DNA of 64,000 nt from assembly GCF_003346815.1 (NCBI RefSeq), contig NZ_CP031217.1:1798001-1862000 (forward strand). Reading direction: 5' to 3'. This document shows, in pieces, positions 48,684-61,029 of the stretch (position 1 is its first letter; the number at the start of each line of letters is the position of its first letter). This DNA is from Halarcobacter bivalviorum. GTDB taxonomy: Bacteria > Campylobacterota > Campylobacteria > Campylobacterales > Arcobacteraceae. The notes under the pieces were generated by a model. It worked only from the letters and a program-made list of their open reading frames with translations. It had not been told where the DNA came from and searched no databases. The position numbers were made by a program, and so were the translations under genes.

Positions 48684-51600
48684 TTATGATTTACTAACAT
48701 CAACAGGCTCTTTACTCTTTTTATTTTTAACTCTTTGCTCTAACTTAATGAAAAACATTAAAAGTGCAGGAGTAACAAAAATTGTAAAGATAGTTGAGAA
48801 GGCTAATCCACCTGTAATAACAGAACCTAAACCTCTATAAAACTCACTTCCTGGTCCTGGAATTAAAACTAAAGGTAACATACCAAAAACAGAAGTCATT
48901 GAAGACATATAAATAGGTCGAACCCTTGTTCTTGTAGCTTCAATTACTGCTTGTTTATGTTCCATTCCTTTATTTCTTATATAATTTAAACTTTGGTGAA
49001 CTATTAAAATTGCATTATTTACAACAATACCAACTAAAATAATAAATCCAAGCATAGTTAAAATATCCAAAGTTTGTGGGGCAATAAAGGTATTTGTTAA
49101 AGCAAGACCAATAAACCCACCTGCTGTTGCTAAAGGAACTGTAAACATAATAACTATTGGATATAAAAAGTTTCCAAATAGTGATGCCATAAGTAAATAA
49201 ACAATAACTAAGGCTAATATAAAGTTTCCTAAAAGTAAACCTATTGTCTCAGTTAACTTATCTGCTGTTCCTGACATTCCAATTTCTACTGATGAAGGAA
49301 TCATTCCTTGAGTTTTCATTCCCTCAAGCATTCCACCAATAATCTTCATTGCCTCTTCAATAGTCATACCTTGAGGAGGAGTTACTTGAAGAGTAATTGT
49401 TCTTTTCCCATCTAGGTGTCTAATTTCACTAATACCTGTAGTAAACTCTGTTGTAGCCAAAGATGAAACAGGAACTAAAGAAGAGTTAGGTAAAGCTATT
49501 TGAGAAGCTAAAATATCTTCAGGAGATTTAATCATCTCATCATCAGCTTTTAATACTAAATCTATTTTCTTTTTACCCTCTTGTTCAAAATCACCAATTT
49601 TTCTTCCATCCATTAGAACATCAACAGTTACTCCTAAATCTTTAGAACTAAGACCTAAAGCTCTTAATGCATCCTGATTGGGCTTTAACCTTACTTCAGG
49701 ATAAAGTAACTCAACTGATGGTACTGGTCGAACTTGACTTCCTTGTAAAGTCTGCATTGTTGCACCAAAAAGCTGTGCTCCTACATTTGCAATATCTTCA
49801 ATCTTTTCACCTGAGATATCAATATTTACATTATTTCCTTCTCCAATTCCATCTTCAAAAACTCCTGATTGAATAGATACACCAAAAATAGAAGGCATAG
49901 AATTCACAAGTGGAGCAAACATAGGAATTAAGTCTCTTGCTCTATCTTCATGAACAGATGTTCCACCAAAAAGATTAAAATCTCCAAAAGAGATATAAAA
50001 AGCTCTATTTAAACCAGGAATATCGACTACATCTTTATTTACATGTGGTTCTATACCTTTCATTAAGTATGCACCCATCTCATATCTTTCTTCATATGAT
50101 AAACCAGGAGGAGCAATTAAGATATTAAAAATTAAATTCTTATTTCCTTGTGGTAAATAATCAAGCTTAGGAAATAGAAGATAAATTGTTCCCACAGAAA
50201 AAATAGCTAATGATAAAATAGTAATTACTTTTGATTTAACATCTTTAAGTGATAGATTTACTACTGACATAATTATATTAACTGCTTTATGTCCTATTTC
50301 AACTATTTTTCCACTCTCTTTTATCTCTTTTTTAGAAAAAGAAGCAAACTTTTTCCAAAGCATTGGAATAACTGCAATTGAAACAAATAAAGAGAAGGTT
50401 ACAGCTGATGTTACAGCAATTGCAATATCTTTAAATAGTTGTCCTGCTTCATCTTCTAAGAAGATAATAGGTAAGAAAACAGCAATAGTTGTAAGAGCAG
50501 AAGCTATTAAAGCTCCCCATACTTCACTTGCACCTTTATAAGCAGCTTCTGAAATACTCTCCCCTGCTTTTCTATGTCTATCAATATTTTCTAAAACAAC
50601 AATAGCAGCATCGACCAGCATACCAACAGCAAAAGAGATACCTGCAAGCGAAATAGTATTTAAACTTCTTCCCATTGCAGAAAGAATAATAAATGTTCCA
50701 ATAATAGAAATTGGAATAGCTACAGAAACAACTGCTGTAGGAGAAATACTTCTTAAAAAGATTATTAAAATAAGAACGGCTAAAATACCACCAATAATAA
50801 TATTTTGTTGAACTAAATCAACAGAACCAACAATATATGGTCTCTCATCATAAATCCAATGAATTTTTAAGCCATTATCTTTTAAAATACCTGCATTTAA
50901 TTCATTTACTATTTTTTCTACATCATTTGTTAGTTTTACAACATTTACTTCAGAACTTGGTTGAACACCTAAAAAAATACCATCTTTTCCTAAGAACATA
51001 GCAACAGTACTTGGAGTTTCATATCCAAAATTTACTTTTGCTATATCTTTTACTCTTACTCTTTGTTCTCTATTTGAGATTAAAATAACCTCTTCAATAT
51101 CTTTTATACTTTTAAATTTATGTACTGTTCTAATTCTATAAGAACGTCTTTCTAAATTTTGAAGTCCTGCAGATACATCTACATTCTCATTTTGTAAAAT
51201 ATTTATAACTTGAGGAATAGTAAGACCATAAGAAGCAAGTTTGTTAACATCAAACTCAATTTGCATCTCTTGTTCTCTTCCTCCACCACCCATAGTTCCA
51301 GAAACACCGTCAACTCTTCTAATAACTGGTTTGATTTCATCTTCAAAAAATGTTTTATATTCATCAATATGTCTTGTGTTATTATCTAAAGTTTGTAACA
51401 TCATCCAAATAACAGGACTTGCTGTTGCTGTTTCTATTACAGGTTCTTCTACATCACTAGGATATGAACTTACTTCATTTAATTTATTTGATACATCTTG
51501 TAAAGCAGCTCTTAAATCTGTTCCTAATTTAAAAGTTAGTGTAACTTCTCCATAATCATCTTTTGAACTTGATTCATATTCTATTAAGTTATTTAAACTT

Positions 51601-51815
51601 TTTAGGGTATCTTCTTGCTCTTCAATAATTTCCCTCTCTATTTCATAGGGAGTTGCTCCAGGCCAAACCGTAGTAATTTTAATCTCAGGTTTAGTTACTG
51701 TAGGAGTTAATTGATAAGGAAGTTTTGACAATGATAAAAAACCAAATAATACTACTATTAGTACAGAAACTATTATTGTTACTGGGTTTTTTATGGAAAA
51801 CTTAATTAAATCCAT
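48684..51815 (-). CDS. RND efflux pump inner-membrane transporter (HAE1/AcrB type)
   Basis: 1043 residues, full-length RND transporter with 12 membrane helices and two large periplasmic loops. N-terminus KFSIKNPVTIIVSVLIVVLF; conserved AVGMLVDAAIVVLENIDRH in helix 4, bearing the proton-relay aspartates, and GFIILVGIVVNNAILIVHQS near the C-terminus. It exports hydrophobic compounds or antimicrobials using proton flow; the substrate is unknown. It lies 85 bp after the adaptor gene, in a gap with a GC-rich hairpin, and 10 bp before tolC. Confidence 0.95.
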   Translation of the reverse strand: MDLIKFSIKNPVTIIVSVLIVVLFGFLSLSKLPYQLTPTVTKPEIKITTVWPGATPYEIEREIIEEQEDTLKSLNNLIEYESSSKDDYGEVTLTFKLGTDLRAALQDVSNKLNEVSSYPSDVEEPVIETATASPVIWMMLQTLDNNTRHIDEYKTFFEDEIKPVIRRVDGVSGTMGGGGREQEMQIEFDVNKLASYGLTIPQVINILQNENVDVSAGLQNLERRSYRIRTVHKFKSIKDIEEVILISNREQRVRVKDIAKVNFGYETPSTVAMFLGKDGIFLGVQPSSEVNVVKLTNDVEKIVNELNAGILKDNGLKIHWIYDERPYIVGSVDLVQQNIIIGGILAVLILIIFLRSISPTAVVSVAIPISIIGTFIILSAMGRSLNTISLAGISFAVGMLVDAAIVVLENIDRHRKAGESISEAAYKGASEVWGALIASALTTIAVFLPIIFLEDEAGQLFKDIAIAVTSAVTFSLFVSIAVIPMLWKKFASFSKKEIKESGKIVEIGHKAVNIIMSVVNLSLKDVKSKVITILSLAIFSVGTIYLLFPKLDYLPQGNKNLIFNILIAPPGLSYEERYEMGAYLMKGIEPHVNKDVVDIPGLNRAFYISFGDFNLFGGTSVHEDRARDLIPMFAPLVNSMPSIFGVSIQSGVFEDGIGEGNNVNIDISGEKIEDIANVGAQLFGATMQTLQGSQVRPVPSVELLYPEVRLKPNQDALRALGLSSKDLGVTVDVLMDGRKIGDFEQEGKKKIDLVLKADDEMIKSPEDILASQIALPNSSLVPVSSLATTEFTTGISEIRHLDGKRTITLQVTPPQGMTIEEAMKIIGGMLEGMKTQGMIPSSVEIGMSGTADKLTETIGLLLGNFILALVIVYLLMASLFGNFLYPIVIMFTVPLATAGGFIGLALTNTFIAPQTLDILTMLGFIILVGIVVNNAILIVHQSLNYIRNKGMEHKQAVIEATRTRVRPIYMSSMTSVFGMLPLVLIPGPGSEFYRGLGSVITGGLAFSTIFTIFVTPALLMFFIKLEQRVKNKKSKEPVDVSKS

Positions 51816-51834
51816 TTATATATTCCTTTAACTT

Positions 51835-51856
51835 GTTCCCCAAATTTCAGGGGAAC
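51835..51856. repeat. GC-rich hairpin inside the efflux operon
   Basis: GTTCCCC (51835-51841) and GGGGAAC (51850-51856) pair exactly across an 8-base loop, in the gap between the adaptor and RND genes. No T-run follows on the minus strand. It may protect the upstream mRNA or set the ratio of adaptor to pump. Confidence 0.5.
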
Positions 51857-51900
51857 CTTTTAGCTTATAATTTCTTTTTTAAAAAAATAACAATTTATCT

Positions 51901-52896
51901 CTATTTATTTAATACTTTTACAGGAGAGTCAGGGAATACTCTTTCATTCCCTTTTTTTACTACATCCATACCTTCGTGTAAACCTTCCGCAGCAATTGCA
52001 ATTTTATCTCCAAGATAACCTACAATCTGTACTGGTGTCATATATGCTGTCATTTTATCTGTAACCGTAAATACAACATTTTGTCCAAATCTTTTAATAA
52101 CAGCATCTCTTGGTACAACTAAAGCTTCAGTTTTACCATTTTTAGAAAGGCTTACTTTTGCTTCTTGACCATCAAATACAAATTCATCTTTTATATCTGC
52201 TTTAAATTTAACAGGAAAAGTTCTTGTTACTTTATCTCCTGCTGGAATAGCAGCAAGTAATCTTGCTTTTAAACTACTATTTGCAACTGTTACTTCATAA
52301 ACATCATCTTTTTTTAAGCCATTAACTACTGATAAAGGAATATTAAAAGTAATTTCTACTTTAGAAGTATTTACTACTGTTAAAAGAGGTGTTCCTGCAT
52401 TTACCCATTCACCTAAGTCAATATGTCTTTCAACTACAACAGCATTATATGGAGCTTTAATTTGCTTTTTTATAGCTTGAATTTCTAATTCTTTTAAAGT
52501 ACTTTTTGCAGTAATATATTTTAGTTTTACATCATCAAACTCTTTTTGAGAGATAGATTTTTGCTCTAATAACTTTGTATATCTCTCATAATCTTTTTTA
52601 GTTGTTGTTGCATTTGCTCTTGCTGATTCAACTTGTGCATTTAAAATATCTGCATCAATTTGAACAAGAGTCTTATTTTTCTTTACTTTGTCTCCAACTT
52701 CAAAATTGATTGCTTTTACAACACCAGAGTTTTGTGCAGCTAATACTGACTTTTTATCAAACTTAATAGTTCCAACAAACTCTTGTAAAGGGTTAACTTC
52801 TGATTTTACAATTTTTGAAGTCTCTACTAAAGAAGGACCTCCCATAGCAAAAAGTGAAGCAGAAAAAATAGTTAAACTTAATAATTTTTTTATCAT
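51901..52896 (-). CDS. RND efflux periplasmic adaptor subunit
   Basis: 331 residues. Signal peptide (IKKLLSLTIFSASLFA), barrel-sandwich lipoyl-like halves (VVKAINFEVGDKVKKNKTLV and IKAPYNAVVVERHIDLGEWV), a short coiled hairpin (about 90-145) and a C-terminal beta-barrel and membrane-proximal domain. It bridges the RND pump to the TolC-family duct. There is no lipobox. The start shares one base with the DUF2798 gene stop (52896). Confidence 0.93.
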   Translation of the reverse strand: MIKKLLSLTIFSASLFAMGGPSLVETSKIVKSEVNPLQEFVGTIKFDKKSVLAAQNSGVVKAINFEVGDKVKKNKTLVQIDADILNAQVESARANATTTKKDYERYTKLLEQKSISQKEFDDVKLKYITAKSTLKELEIQAIKKQIKAPYNAVVVERHIDLGEWVNAGTPLLTVVNTSKVEITFNIPLSVVNGLKKDDVYEVTVANSSLKARLLAAIPAGDKVTRTFPVKFKADIKDEFVFDGQEAKVSLSKNGKTEALVVPRDAVIKRFGQNVVFTVTDKMTAYMTPVQIVGYLGDKIAIAAEGLHEGMDVVKKGNERVFPDSPVKVLNK

Positions 52897-53126
52897 TATT
52901 TTTCCTCTTTAATTAATTTATTTGTAATTTTCTGTACCATAGGAGCAACAAAAAATACTATTGGAAAAGCACATATAAAGGCTTTTACAAATGCTTCCAT
53001 CCATTTACCTATAAATCCATCAATAAAACCTAGATTTATAAAGGTAATAACCATGCTCATAATAAAGCTCATAAATAAAGACATAAAAAAGGCAAAAGTT
53101 AGCCTTCTATACTTTGGGTTTATCAT
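52896..53126 (-). CDS. DUF2798 small membrane protein
   Basis: 76 residues with two membrane helices (about 9-32 and 45-65). The sequence RRLTFAFFMSLFMSFIMSMV with later GKWMEAFVKAFICAFPIVF is typical of DUF2798, a family often encoded with efflux or regulator genes. Function is unknown. It overlaps tetR by 4 bp and the adaptor gene by one base, so it is tightly coupled in the efflux operon. Confidence 0.85.
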   Translation of the reverse strand: MINPKYRRLTFAFFMSLFMSFIMSMVITFINLGFIDGFIGKWMEAFVKAFICAFPIVFFVAPMVQKITNKLIKEEK

Positions 53127-53725
53127 TTTTTAATCTCAATTAGCTGTAAAATAGTTCCAATAAACTTTTCATAATCTGCTCTAACATCGAAATTCGCTTG
53201 ACTCATTTTTCTTAGAGCAAGTCCTTTATGATAAGTTAAAATTCCATCTGCTAAGTTAAGAGCATCCTCTTTTATCTCACCTTTTTTTATAGAATCTTCT
53301 AAAATTTTAATTAGTTCTCCACCAAAAAATTCATTTTTCTCACAATTAAACTCTTTCATTGATGGGTTTTCTTCTGCTAAAACAATCGATAAAAACTCTT
53401 TATATCCATTGAAGTGTTTCATGTTTTCTTCTGAATTATTTAATACAAAATCAAAAAATAGTTCAAATTTATCTTCAATAGTATTTAACTTTGCAACCTC
53501 TTTTGTAAACTCTTCATGGTGCTGTTCTATATGCATATTTATAATTTCAAAAATAATATCTTCTTTGTTTTCAAAATATTCATAGATAGTACCCTTACCT
53601 ATTCCTGCTGTTTTCGCAACCTCAGCAACAGTAAGTTTTTTCATTCCAACTTCATGAATTAAATCAGAACAAGATAGTGCAATCTCTCTTCTTTTCTCTT
53701 CTTTATTTATTTTTCTTGGGCTCAC
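53123..53725 (-). CDS. TetR-family transcriptional regulator of the efflux operon
   Basis: 200 residues. The N-terminal helix-turn-helix is clear: LTVAEVAKTAGIGKGTIYEYF, then ENKEDIIFEIINMHIEQH. The C-terminal ligand domain is diverged, as usual. It is the first gene of the efflux operon and is probably autoregulated: two GACC/GGTC palindromes lie 49-124 bp upstream of its start. The ligand is likely a pump substrate. No database comparison was possible. Confidence 0.92.
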   Translation of the reverse strand: MSPRKINKEEKRREIALSCSDLIHEVGMKKLTVAEVAKTAGIGKGTIYEYFENKEDIIFEIINMHIEQHHEEFTKEVAKLNTIEDKFELFFDFVLNNSEENMKHFNGYKEFLSIVLAEENPSMKEFNCEKNEFFGGELIKILEDSIKKGEIKEDALNLADGILTYHKGLALRKMSQANFDVRADYEKFIGTILQLIEIKK

Positions 53726-53904: not shown

Positions 53905-55359
53905 TTATGAAGAACAAGAAAGTTGTAAATTTGCAAACTTATTTAAAGTTGGTTTTGCATACCTTTCAAATTCTTTATGCTCATCAAATGGGCTTTGTGC
54001 TATCTTTAACAAATCATTTACTAAAGTGAAATCTTTCTTTTCAGCCATCTCAATTGCCTCTTGAAGCATATAGTTTTTAATGATATATTTAGGATTTGTT
54101 TTTTTCATTATTTCTTTCATAAATTTTAAATCTTGATTTTGTTTATTTACTATTTCTTTATATTTATCAAGCCAATCTAATAAAGCTTCTTTATATGGTA
54201 CAAAATCTAAAATAGCTGAAAAATCATCAAAAGAATCAAGATTTGTCAATTGCCAAAAGAAGAAATTGTAATCACATTTTGATACTTCTAAAGCTTCAAG
54301 TAATTCAAGGACTAAATCAATATTTGAATCGCCAGCTAAATCAATATCTAGTCCTAATCTTTTATTCATAAGTTCTAAATAATGTTTTTGATTTGAAGAG
54401 ATAAAAGTTTGAAGATATTCTAATAACTTTTTCTCATCACAAACATCTTTTAAAGCATGAGCTAATACTTCTAAATTCCATCTTGCTACATAAGGTTGAT
54501 TAGAATAAGAGTATCTTCCTTCTATATCAGTATGATTACAAATACATCCCATTTCAAAATTATCCATAAAAGCAAAAGGACCATAATCAATTGTAAGTCC
54601 AGAAGTAGACATATTATCTGTATTCATAACTCCATGCATAAAGCCATAAGCCATCCACTGTGATATAAGTTTTGCAGTTCTATCTACAAGCTCAAAATAG
54701 AATCTTTCATAAGAGTATTCAACTCCTTGTAAATGAGGATATGAATTTTTAATTACATAATCAAGAAGTTGTTTTAAATGTTTTATATCATCTTGTTTTG
54801 CAAAATATTCAAAGGTTCCTATTCTAATCCATGAAGTTGAGAGTCTTAAAACTATTGCACCTGTTTGTTCTTGTTCATAAGGTCTATAAACTGGACTACT
54901 TGAACCAATAAGAGCTAATGCTCTCGTAGTTGGTACTCCTAAAGCATACATAGCCTCACTCATAATATATTCTCGAATACTAGACCTTAAAACAGCTCTA
55001 CCATCCCCTTGTCGTGAATATTTAGTAAGCCCTGCTCCTTTTGTTTGTAAATGCCATTTGCTAATTTTCCCCAAATTTATAGCTCGTCCATCTCCTAATT
55101 GAGGAACATAATATCCAAACTGATGACCTGAATAAACTTGGGCATAAGGTATAGAGTTTTTTAAAAAATTTTTACCATTTATAAAATCAATAAAATCTTC
55201 TGTTTCACACTCTTCATAATCTAAGCCTATCAAATTGCAAGCTTCTTTAGAATAACTTATAAGATGTGCTTCTAAAAGTGGTTGTGGTTTTACTTTTTGA
55301 TAAAACTTTTCAGCAAATTCAAAATAATCACAATCTACTTCTAATTCATTTAGTTTCAT
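53905..55359 (-). CDS. selO: Protein adenylyltransferase SelO (YdiU)
   Basis: 484 residues, pseudokinase-fold enzyme that transfers AMP to Ser/Thr/Tyr side chains. Conserved stretches are AQVYSGHQFGYYVPQLGDGR, HLQTKGAGLTKYSRQGDGRA, HGVMNTDNMSTSGLTIDYGP and FAFMDNFEMGCICNHTD. The C-terminus is SCSS, with cysteine at residue 482, the position where animal SelO has selenocysteine. In E. coli SelO acts in redox homeostasis. It is transcribed divergently from the thioredoxin-like gene at 55476; the AAGG ribosome site is just before the ATG at 55359. Confidence 0.95.
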   Translation of the reverse strand: MKLNELEVDCDYFEFAEKFYQKVKPQPLLEAHLISYSKEACNLIGLDYEECETEDFIDFINGKNFLKNSIPYAQVYSGHQFGYYVPQLGDGRAINLGKISKWHLQTKGAGLTKYSRQGDGRAVLRSSIREYIMSEAMYALGVPTTRALALIGSSSPVYRPYEQEQTGAIVLRLSTSWIRIGTFEYFAKQDDIKHLKQLLDYVIKNSYPHLQGVEYSYERFYFELVDRTAKLISQWMAYGFMHGVMNTDNMSTSGLTIDYGPFAFMDNFEMGCICNHTDIEGRYSYSNQPYVARWNLEVLAHALKDVCDEKKLLEYLQTFISSNQKHYLELMNKRLGLDIDLAGDSNIDLVLELLEALEVSKCDYNFFFWQLTNLDSFDDFSAILDFVPYKEALLDWLDKYKEIVNKQNQDLKFMKEIMKKTNPKYIIKNYMLQEAIEMAEKKDFTLVNDLLKIAQSPFDEHKEFERYAKPTLNKFANLQLSCSS

Positions 55360-55475
55360 TAAATACCTTAATATAATTTCCGAATTATAAAATAAGATGT
55401 TTTTTCTCTCATTTAACTAAACAAATACTTTATAAAGTTAAGGTATATTACAAATAACATATAAAAGGAGAAAAG

Positions 55476-55841
55476 ATGAAAAAGTTTTTATTTTTATTTT
55501 TATTTAGCTTTTCTTCACTATTCGCTTTTGAAGAACTTTCAGAAATAGATTTTGAAGATAAAATTGCTAATAAAAATGTAATCATAGATTTTTATAGTGT
55601 ATATTGACCTGCTTGTAAGGTTCTGGGTTGGAACATTAAAGAGTATAGTAAAAACAAGCGAGATGATGTAACTATCTATAAAGTTAACGTAGGAAAAGAG
55701 ATGAATATTGCAAGTCATTTTGACTTACTTGGTGTTCCTGCAATTGCATTTTTAAAAGATGGTAAACTCATAATTTTAGAGTATGGAATCAAAAATGCAA
55801 AAACATTAAAAGAGCTTGAAGAAGAATATTTCGGTAAGTAG
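55476..55841 (+). CDS. Exported thioredoxin-fold protein with in-frame TGA at the redox cysteine (probable selenoprotein)
   Basis: 121 residues if the TGA at 55605-55607 is read as selenocysteine. Strong ribosome site AAGGAG (55465-55470) and a signal peptide (KKFLFLFLFSFSSLFA, cut about residue 17). The thioredoxin core reads VIIDFYSVY-U-PACKVLGW, so the TGA is residue 44 and C47 completes a UxxC motif in place of CxxC. The cis-proline loop LLGVPAIAFLKDGK (about residue 88) is intact, and the frame runs 77 more codons to TAG at 55839-55841. A G-rich hairpin (55617-55637) starts ten bases after the TGA. It is predicted to be periplasmic, with a DsbD-gamma-like context (PACK). A nonsense-mutated pseudogene is the alternative; no other lesion is seen. 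No selA/B/C/D genes are in the window. Confidence 0.75.
55617..55637 (+). promoter_or_regulatory. Candidate bacterial SECIS hairpin
   Basis: Within the coding sequence: GTTC (55620-55623) pairs with GAAC (55631-55634), a T-G pair closes the loop GGGTT (55625-55629), and AA/TT extend the stem beyond one G-A mismatch. The loop begins 17 bases after the TGA, close to the spacing in E. coli fdhF, and it starts with G. The codons here (CTG, GGT, AAC) are unusual for this AT-rich genome, as expected if RNA structure is under selection. Confidence 0.6.
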
Positions 55842-58431: not shown

Positions 58432-61029
58432 ATGAAGAAGTCATATAAAATACTCTCTTCGTTAGTTTTGGGTAGTACACTTACAACTTCTGTTGCATTA
58501 GGGGCAACAAATGAATTATCTAAAGTAATGAAAGAAAGAGGGCTCTCTGAAATTGATGTTATTAGAGCAGCTAAAACATATAACCCTACTGGAATCAAAG
58601 ACAAATATGTTGTTTTTTCATCAGGTGGACAATCAGGACAAGTAATTGTTTATGGTGTTCCCTCAATGAGAATTCTAAAATATATTGGAGTATTTACCCC
58701 AGAGCCTTGGCAAGGGTATGGATACGATAAAGACTCACTTGCAATATTAAGACAAGGAAATATCAGAGGTAAAGAGATTAACTGGGGAGATACACACCAC
58801 CCTGCTTTATCTGAAACTGATGGAAAATATGATGGAAAATGGTTAGCAATTAATGATAAAGCAAATCCTAGAATTGCAATTATTGACTTAGGAGATTTTG
58901 AAACAAAACAGATTGTTCCAAATCCAGTTTTCAAATCTGACCATGGTGGTGCTTTCTTTACACCTAATTCTGAATTTATTATTGAAGCTGCTCAATATGC
59001 AGCACCTTTTGATAATGAATATCACCCTATAGAGGACTACAAAGAGACTTATAGAGGTGGAGTAACTATGTGGAAATTTGACCCAAAAATTGGGCGAATT
59101 TTACCTAAAGACTCTTTTACTATTGAATTTCCTCCTTATCATCAAGATTTATCTGATGCAGGAAAAGGAGAGAGTAATGGTTGGGGATTTACAAACTCAT
59201 TTAATACAGAGATGTATACAGGTGGAATAGAAGTAGGAATGCCACCAAATGAAGCTGGTATGTCAAGAAATGATACTGACTTTTTACATGTATACAACTG
59301 GAAAAAACTTGCAGAACTTGCAAAAAATCCTAAAAATGTAAAAATTGTTAATGACCATAGAGTTATTCCAATTGATGTTGCAGTTAAAAATAATGCCCTA
59401 TTTTTAATTCCCGAAGCTAAATCTCCCCATGGAGTAGATGTATCTCCTGATGGTAGATATATTATTGTTTGTGGGAAACTAGATACTCATGCTTCAGTTT
59501 ATGATTTTAGAAAAATCAAAAAACTAATTGATAATAAAGAGTATTCAGGGAAAGACCCTTATGGAATTCCTATTCTTGATATGAAAAAATCATTACATGG
59601 ACAATTAGAGTTAGGACTTGGGCCTTTACATAATCAATATTCACCTATTGACGGACAAGTATATACTTCTTTATATGTTGATTCTCAAGTTGTAAAATGG
59701 GATTATAAAAAACTAAAAGTTTTAGATAAAGAGAATGTTCACTATAACATTGGTCACCTTGCAGGAATGGAAGGAAAATCAGCAGATCCTCAAGGGGAAT
59801 ATATCATTGCTTTAAATAAACTTTCAATTGATAGATTCCAAAATGTAGGACCTCTACATCCTCAAAATCACCAATTAATTGATATTTCTGGTAAAACAAT
59901 GGACCTTTTAGTTGATATGCCTCTACCTTTAGGAGAACCTCATCAAGCTGTTGCTATTAGAGCTAGTAAATTACATCCTCATGTAAGATACAAAATGGGA
60001 ACTAATAGTAAAACAGGAAAAGAGCATATTGGAAAAACTCTTGCGGGACAAGAAAGAATTGAAAGAAAGGGAAATCATGTAACCGTGTATGCTACTTTAG
60101 TTAGGTCACATATTAACCCTGAAAGAATTACTGTAAATAAAGGTGATTTAGTAACTATTCATATGACAAATCTTGAAAGAGCACAAGATGAAACACATGG
60201 ATTTACAATTGATAACTATAACCAACACGGTTCATTAGAACCAGGAGAAACAACAACTTTAGAGTTTGTTGCTGATATGGAAGGGGTATTCCCTTACTAT
60301 TGTACAGAGTTTTGTTCTGCGCTTCACTTAGAAATGATGGGATATTTAATGGTTAAAGATCCTAACAAAAAATATGAGAGTGCACAAAAGTTAAAAATGA
60401 AATCAATGACTACGCAAGAGTTAAAAGCAGAATATGACAAAACTGTTGCGGTAAATAAAGCAACAGATGCTGTTATTCAATCAGTAGTTAAATTTTTAAA
60501 AGATAATAAATTTGAAAACCATAAAGTTGTTGCAGATTTAGTAACAGATGCACTTGACCAATACAACAAAATTCCAGAACAAAAGAAAAAATCAGATGAA
60601 GCTTTCAAAAAAGGAGATATTGAAAAAGCAATTCTTTTTGAAAACATGATTTGGCAACTAATGGTTAAAACAGCCGATGTTGGGATTAGAGCAAAAGATA
60701 CTTTAGTTAGAAAAATTGCAACTAAGCAAAGTGCTTCTGCTGCAAGAGGAGAAAAAGCTTTTGCAGAAGGTGGTTGTAATGGATGTCACGTAATAGGAAA
60801 AGTATCTTCAGGACCTGACTTAACAGGAGTTTTACAAAGACATGAAAATGGTGTTAAATGGGTTAGTAAATTTATTCTAGAACCAGAAACAATGTATGAT
60901 GATCCATATGTAAAAGGGATGATTGATTATTTTAATTTAAAAATGCCTAATCAACATATGACAGAAGAAGAGACAAAAGACATTATTGAATATCTAAAAT
61001 GGATTGATGAAAATGCCAACCTTTTCTAA
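58432..61029 (+). CDS. nosZ: Nitrous oxide reductase, clade II with C-terminal cytochrome c domain
   Basis: 865 residues. Reduces N2O to N2 in the periplasm. The Sec-type signal peptide (KKSYKILSSLVLGSTLTTSVALGA) has no twin-arginine motif, as in clade II. The beta-propeller carries CuZ histidines in DTHHPALSE, DHGGAFF, SPHGVDVS, LGPLHNQY and GHLAGMEG. The CuA site is C624-x3-C628-x3-H632-x2-M635 in CTEFCSALHLEMMGYL. A C-terminal haem domain (about 765-865) holds C782-x2-C785-H786, as in Wolinella cNosZ, letting a quinol chain feed electrons directly. Followed by nosB, nosD and nosG. Confidence 0.98.
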   Translation: MKKSYKILSSLVLGSTLTTSVALGATNELSKVMKERGLSEIDVIRAAKTYNPTGIKDKYVVFSSGGQSGQVIVYGVPSMRILKYIGVFTPEPWQGYGYDKDSLAILRQGNIRGKEINWGDTHHPALSETDGKYDGKWLAINDKANPRIAIIDLGDFETKQIVPNPVFKSDHGGAFFTPNSEFIIEAAQYAAPFDNEYHPIEDYKETYRGGVTMWKFDPKIGRILPKDSFTIEFPPYHQDLSDAGKGESNGWGFTNSFNTEMYTGGIEVGMPPNEAGMSRNDTDFLHVYNWKKLAELAKNPKNVKIVNDHRVIPIDVAVKNNALFLIPEAKSPHGVDVSPDGRYIIVCGKLDTHASVYDFRKIKKLIDNKEYSGKDPYGIPILDMKKSLHGQLELGLGPLHNQYSPIDGQVYTSLYVDSQVVKWDYKKLKVLDKENVHYNIGHLAGMEGKSADPQGEYIIALNKLSIDRFQNVGPLHPQNHQLIDISGKTMDLLVDMPLPLGEPHQAVAIRASKLHPHVRYKMGTNSKTGKEHIGKTLAGQERIERKGNHVTVYATLVRSHINPERITVNKGDLVTIHMTNLERAQDETHGFTIDNYNQHGSLEPGETTTLEFVADMEGVFPYYCTEFCSALHLEMMGYLMVKDPNKKYESAQKLKMKSMTTQELKAEYDKTVAVNKATDAVIQSVVKFLKDNKFENHKVVADLVTDALDQYNKIPEQKKKSDEAFKKGDIEKAILFENMIWQLMVKTADVGIRAKDTLVRKIATKQSASAARGEKAFAEGGCNGCHVIGKVSSGPDLTGVLQRHENGVKWVSKFILEPETMYDDPYVKGMIDYFNLKMPNQHMTEEETKDIIEYLKWIDENANLF

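Follow-up and report, generated by a model that had tools for sequence, protein, structure and literature searches.

Does the in-frame TGA at positions 55605..55607 (+) of this stretch of Halarcobacter bivalviorum DNA (64,000 nucleotides, hereafter the window) break a thioredoxin gene, or does it encode selenocysteine (Sec) in a working one? The gene around it occupies 55476..55841 of the forward strand (+), where the frame, the Pfam match, the family search and the alignment together define 121 residues followed by a TAG stop at 55839-55841 (+). A ribosome-binding site, AAGGAG, can be read directly at 55465..55470 (+), 5 nt before the ATG at 55476. The translation, MKKFLFLFLFSFSSLFA-FEELSE...FYSVY-U-PAC...GVPAIAF..., opens with a signal-peptide-like stretch at 55476..55526 (+), recognized by eye, which suggests export. 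When the TGA is translated as Cys for Pfam and NCBIfam scoring, residues 20-112 match PF00085 with an E-value of 3.6e-16 (59.5 bits, the cut-off being 23.5). No NCBIfam model scores over its cut-off, the best being the thioredoxin equivalog TIGR01068 with 66.2 bits against 96.8. The TGA is residue 44 by the frame and by comparison with relatives, and the resolving Cys47, placed by frame and alignment, is the TGT at 55614..55616 (+). Both the UxxC motif (U44-P-A-C47) and the cis-Pro, Pro88, are present in the translation. In a 32-row alignment Pro88 is invariant, and most rows share, by eye, a similar N-terminal start and a ...FAFE-like boundary. AlphaFold, given the single sequence of the window protein, returns a poor model (pLDDT 51). 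The first-pass annotation had claimed the AAGGAG site, a thioredoxin core, a TGA exactly three codons before a Cys, an intact cis-Pro loop and an open frame of 77 codons after the TGA, and all of these hold.

Thioredoxin matches are found in every one of the 104 family genomes searched, and among the matches listed 22 copies in 20 of these genomes, query included, are of the Sec type. In all 22 the TGA occupies the identical codon, a Cys follows at +3 and the frame is otherwise open up to its normal end, at 110-125 residues; the sequence used for one copy (L048) starts at query residue 13, and the extraction of another (L044) begins two codons past an ATG. Among the matches listed from 397 phylum genomes, 42 of them from the same family, there is one further TGA copy outside the family, in G418 from another family of the same order, with a matching stretch beyond its TGA. 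The distant weak matches listed also include some with a stop, one TGA in G082 and one TAA each in G089, G046 and G038. G082 and G089 align stop-free as ordinary WCGPC thioredoxins and were left out of the count. A single-protein search of genome contigs returned just one match, an ordinary Lachnoclostridium thioredoxin, and a plasmid search returned 31 records, all below 60% identity, of which the 10 listed are trxA.

The coding sequence is under purifying selection on both sides of the TGA. Against the closest relative, G061, dN and dS are 0.044 and 0.348 before the TGA and 0.123 and 0.704 after it. In the 30 most similar of the 231 Sec pairs, dN is lower than dS on both sides wherever it was computed, two upstream values not having been obtained. 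The downstream dN/dS ratio across these 30 pairs ranges from ~0.08 to 0.84, with the high values coming from distant pairs.

A hairpin with a GGGTT loop had been described in the first-pass annotation as starting 17 bases after the TGA; the hairpin and its loop are there, but it starts 12 nt after the TGA. Folding, covariation and RNAalifold place this SECIS apical hairpin at 55620..55634 (+), with the stem GUUCU/GGAAC formed by 55620-55624 and 55630-55634 and the loop GGGUU at 55625-55629. Folded alone, the 61 nt from 55605 (55605-55665) are undistinguished (z –0.11, with 86 of 200 shuffles folding as well), so the case for the hairpin rests on comparison. The Sec set comprises 22 sequences, 18 of them distinct; in its hairpin columns 16-20/26-30, 97.8% of the 90 cells are paired, and sliding the partner by 1-3 columns lowers the pairing to 27.8-70.0%. 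Two-sided changes affect 3 pairs and 18 cells in this set, against a shuffled mean of 6.0, and the covariation score is 0.609 against 0.357 when shuffled, with the caveat that related sequences may beat such shuffles even without structure. Two other shuffle measures give the helix no support: double-change pairs are matched in 207 of 500 shuffles and further pair types in all 500. RNAalifold, run on 21 of the 22 sequences, arrives at the same five pairs. At base 22, in the loop, every Sec row (22/22) has G, compared to 13 of 24 Cys rows. In the Sec copy L049 two of the five pairs are broken in the fixed register, and a 5-bp stem shifted by one base can be seen by eye.

In a set of 24 Cys homologues, 23 of them distinct, these columns are 67.0% paired, with no double-change pairs, no such cells and a score of 0.119. 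This Cys set is what is left of 30 non-TGA relatives, fetched from part of those listed, after removal of the revertant L013 described below, the second L028 gene, L055 (whose location coincides with that of L034) and three ordinary thioredoxins. The hairpin thus covaries in the Sec genes and not in the Cys homologues. An RNA model of the Sec-thioredoxin hairpin, searched against its own genome at E-values up to 10, gives 31 matches, of which the gene itself has an E-value of 4.7e-9 and the other 30 a best of 0.075. Six of these 30 were inspected: one has no TGA at the expected place, four have stops nearby and one, L080 (G000:C1:582421-582457; E 1.07), has a TGA preceded by 30 and followed by 37 open codons, and may lie antisense to a gene. 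Because the model is specific to the Sec-thioredoxin gene, its other matches say little about further selenoproteins.

The first-pass annotation had also proposed looking for the sel genes, and selA, selB, selC and selD are all present in the same genome, a single contig (C1) of 2,684,688 bases. selA lies at C1:1070842-1071915 (E 4.4e-142) and selB at C1:1068963-1070780 (289.7 bits against a cut-off of 242.25). For the tRNA-Sec gene, selC (C1:1072194-1072288), ARAGORN reports tRNA-SeC with anticodon tca, and the score of 48 bits against a gathering score of 47 is to be read with the fact that the same model matches every one of 14 control genomes and passes the cut-off in 5 of them. Two further genes have one in-frame TGA and a 5-bp hairpin, namely selD, identified by the family search at C1:1072399-1073316, and a match to the formate dehydrogenase alpha subunit (FdhA) at C1:1083455-1084963, which stays below its model cut-off (463.2 against 666.25). 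Numbered from the U of the UGA (base 1), the first base of a hairpin with a 5-bp stem and 5-nt loop is 15 in SelD and 16 in the thioredoxin on folding, and 17 in FdhA on pairing by eye. Of the 20 Sec-thioredoxin genomes, taken from the matches listed, 19 have a SelA match, compared to 52 of the 84 others (Fisher p 0.003, relatedness ignored). The exception, G096, has a Sec-type copy, is 86% complete and falls outside the 71 genomes with a SelA match; in G097 the SelA match is partial only.

These observations bear directly on the other ways in which the TGA could be read. If the gene were a pseudogene, an ordinary thioredoxin with a nonsense mutation at the catalytic Cys codon, a single base would separate its TGA from TGT or TGC, and the genome does lack the dsbD-linked Cys copy considered below. 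Decay of this kind is nevertheless extremely improbable, since the same codon is TGA in all the Sec-type copies listed with no other early stop, selection persists downstream of it, and compensatory changes maintain the hairpin. Close orthologues, the other comparison that the first-pass annotation had suggested, likewise have the TGA at a single codon and are free of other early stops. A misreading of TGC or TGT as TGA during sequencing or assembly has a vanishingly small probability, as judged from the assembly: the TGA recurs in other genomes, and the covarying hairpin is specific to the TGA-bearing genes.

The UGA could also be decoded as another amino acid, such as Trp or Cys, the identity of the residue being predicted here from the sequence. 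We regard this as very improbable. UGA terminates 7 of 51 chosen window ORFs of at least 150 codons, and is therefore a normal stop; a tRNA-Sec with anticodon tca is encoded, and SelD and FdhA of this genome have hairpins like that of the thioredoxin gene. The reading of the gene as a Sec-thioredoxin, with which the first-pass annotation had begun, is supported by the sel genes, the conserved single TGA codon and the covariation of the hairpin. Very probably, the in-frame UGA encodes selenocysteine at the catalytic position, and we put the probability that this is a genuine selenoprotein gene, with Sec at the catalytic position of a thioredoxin, at roughly 95%.

What the Sec-thioredoxin does is suggested by the genes next to its Cys paralogues. 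In eight of the nine stand-alone Cys loci read (G066, G059, G058, G035, G036, G005, G080 and G030, the exception being G339) the Cys gene immediately precedes dsbD and is flanked on its other side by a divergent rhodanese gene; neighbours were identified by clustering, with Pfam applied to a single dsbD and a single rhodanese gene from the eight loci. In G086 and G087 the Sec gene sits in the place before dsbD. In the query genome dsbD (PF02683; L106, C1:2470764-2472512) stands beside a divergent rhodanese-like gene, and the ~170 bases between the two hold no thioredoxin; the dsbD locus is likewise without a thioredoxin in G061, G062 and G063. The Sec gene appears to have taken over from the Cys paralogue that normally precedes dsbD, and by analogy with the dsbD-linked Cys paralogues the Sec-thioredoxin is probably a periplasmic reductant fed by DsbD.

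In the window the neighbour is a different one. The gene for the protein adenylyltransferase SelO (PF02696, E 5.9e-133), an open frame of 484 codons, lies at 53905..55359 on the reverse strand (–), divergent to the Sec gene with 116 bp between the start codons. Relatives of the genes at window positions 48684-53725, which we take to be an efflux-like cluster (an RND-type transporter, a membrane-fusion-like protein and a TetR-like regulator), adjoin selO in several other loci. Further along the window, 58432-61029 encodes an 865-residue protein that is presumably nitrous-oxide reductase-like, with a c-type haem motif near its end.

The divergent arrangement admits another function, in which the protein is a true Sec-thioredoxin but, instead of being a client of DsbD, contributes with SelO to stress defence. 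Of the 23 Sec copies 10 have selO as divergent neighbour, as does one Cys revertant; by their handles these loci span three genera, and some of the Sec copies without this neighbour lie near contig ends. SelO is cytoplasmic, whereas the thioredoxin has a signal-peptide-like start; the Sec gene precedes dsbD in G086 and G087; and adjacent genes need not work together. A partnership with SelO therefore appears rather unlikely to us, and we retain DsbD as the probable electron donor.

The distribution of Sec and Cys suggests how the present arrangement could have arisen. A tree of 50 proteins, which leaves open 19 of its 47 inner branches, unites all 23 Sec rows with two Cys rows in a single group of 25. 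The Sec/Cys label changes 3 times on this tree, compared to a shuffled mean of 16.9, and none of 500 shuffles is as low. Of these two Cys rows, the second L028 gene sits on a long branch and is of uncertain place. The other, L013 (G092:C25:48354-48710), is Cys-coding, and over the first 33 bases from the codon its sole difference from the Sec gene L020 is TGA to TGT, with the hairpin intact. Such near-identity is what a recent return to Cys predicts, and L013 is apparently a recent Sec-to-Cys reversion. The tree as a whole fits one gain of Sec and two losses. In G091, the locus L028 holds a Sec thioredoxin (1501-1857) and a divergent Cys paralogue (1925-2281) in tandem, and this genome also encodes one more Sec copy (L049) and one more Cys copy (L052).

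According to the mechanism that we propose, SelB with Sec-tRNA would bind the hairpin immediately downstream of the UGA, and Sec would be inserted by the ribosome at residue 44, as the observed sequence features and covariation suggest. The thioredoxin would be exported to the periplasm, if its N-terminus has been read correctly by eye. There Sec44 would be the nucleophile that attacks substrate disulfides and Cys47 would resolve the intermediate, with electrons presumably supplied by DsbD, as the dsbD-linked Cys paralogues imply. We extend this only tentatively to a longer history, which we consider possible but doubtful: a duplicated exported thioredoxin may have gained Sec once, left the dsbD operon for the place divergent to selO and replaced the Cys version here, and Sec may have been lost in a relative by a single-base codon change. 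Replacement of the Cys version would make periplasmic thiol reduction in this organism hinge on the supply of selenium. If this is true, the periplasm would have a reducing pathway that depends on selenium and is perhaps expressed together with the SelO adenylyltransferase.

Sec-thioredoxins are already known; the lineage found here is real and little noticed. The biochemistry of a bacterial Sec-containing thioredoxin was reportedly studied by Kim et al. in 2015. Ordinary gene finding stops at the TGA, so a gene of this kind can be missed or called a pseudogene. Table 1 of PMC1794560 gives seven members for Sec-containing thioredoxin (UxxC), and Sec-containing thioredoxin is likewise tabulated in PMC9312934. 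In PMC13188914, thioredoxin is entered above the 'Predicted with high confidence' heading, and certain bacteria are stated to have Sec-containing thioredoxin; the ocean survey PMC2398784 lists thioredoxin-like families with UxxC. Closer to the present group, the extract of Cravedi et al. 2015 (PMC4607533) describes one Sec thioredoxin among the epsilonproteobacterial proteomes studied, and selenoprotein hairpins of 5/6 bp with an invariant loop G. The excerpted text of the Arcobacter butzleri genome paper (PMC2147049) mentions selenocysteine for formate dehydrogenase only. The clade is described in no title or abstract opening that was found in the open-licence literature. Our analysis adds a well supported lineage to a group for which the extract of PMC4607533 reports one Sec thioredoxin. 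Its Sec copies, its Cys paralogues, some of them in the same genomes, and the apparent recent return to Cys form a compact natural series in which one can ask why a bacterium retains selenium in an exported thioredoxin.

The gene has the same protein name as the Sec thioredoxin in the extract of PMC4607533, and the same kind of hairpin with the invariant loop G. That is one protein, possibly of the same clade, compared to 22 copies in 20 genomes among the matches listed here. More generally, it shares with published bacterial Sec-thioredoxins the PF00085 domain, the UxxC motif, the in-frame UGA with a SECIS-type hairpin and the Sec machinery. It differs from them, as far as their descriptions go, in its signal-peptide-like start and in belonging to a Sec clade that stands beside a dsbD-operon Cys paralogue and, among the matches listed, is confined almost to one family. 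The dsbD-linked WCPPC thioredoxins (L018, L053, L054, L055, L056, L057 and L058) are related and have the same kind of start, but they have Cys instead of Sec, no covarying hairpin and a different genomic place. In the 32-row alignment the Cys rows other than the revertant are 35-44% identical to the Sec-thioredoxin. Periplasmic thioredoxins of the SoxW and CcmG type are reductants fed by DsbD or CcdA, and the protein encoded here would be their like as a periplasmic reductant.
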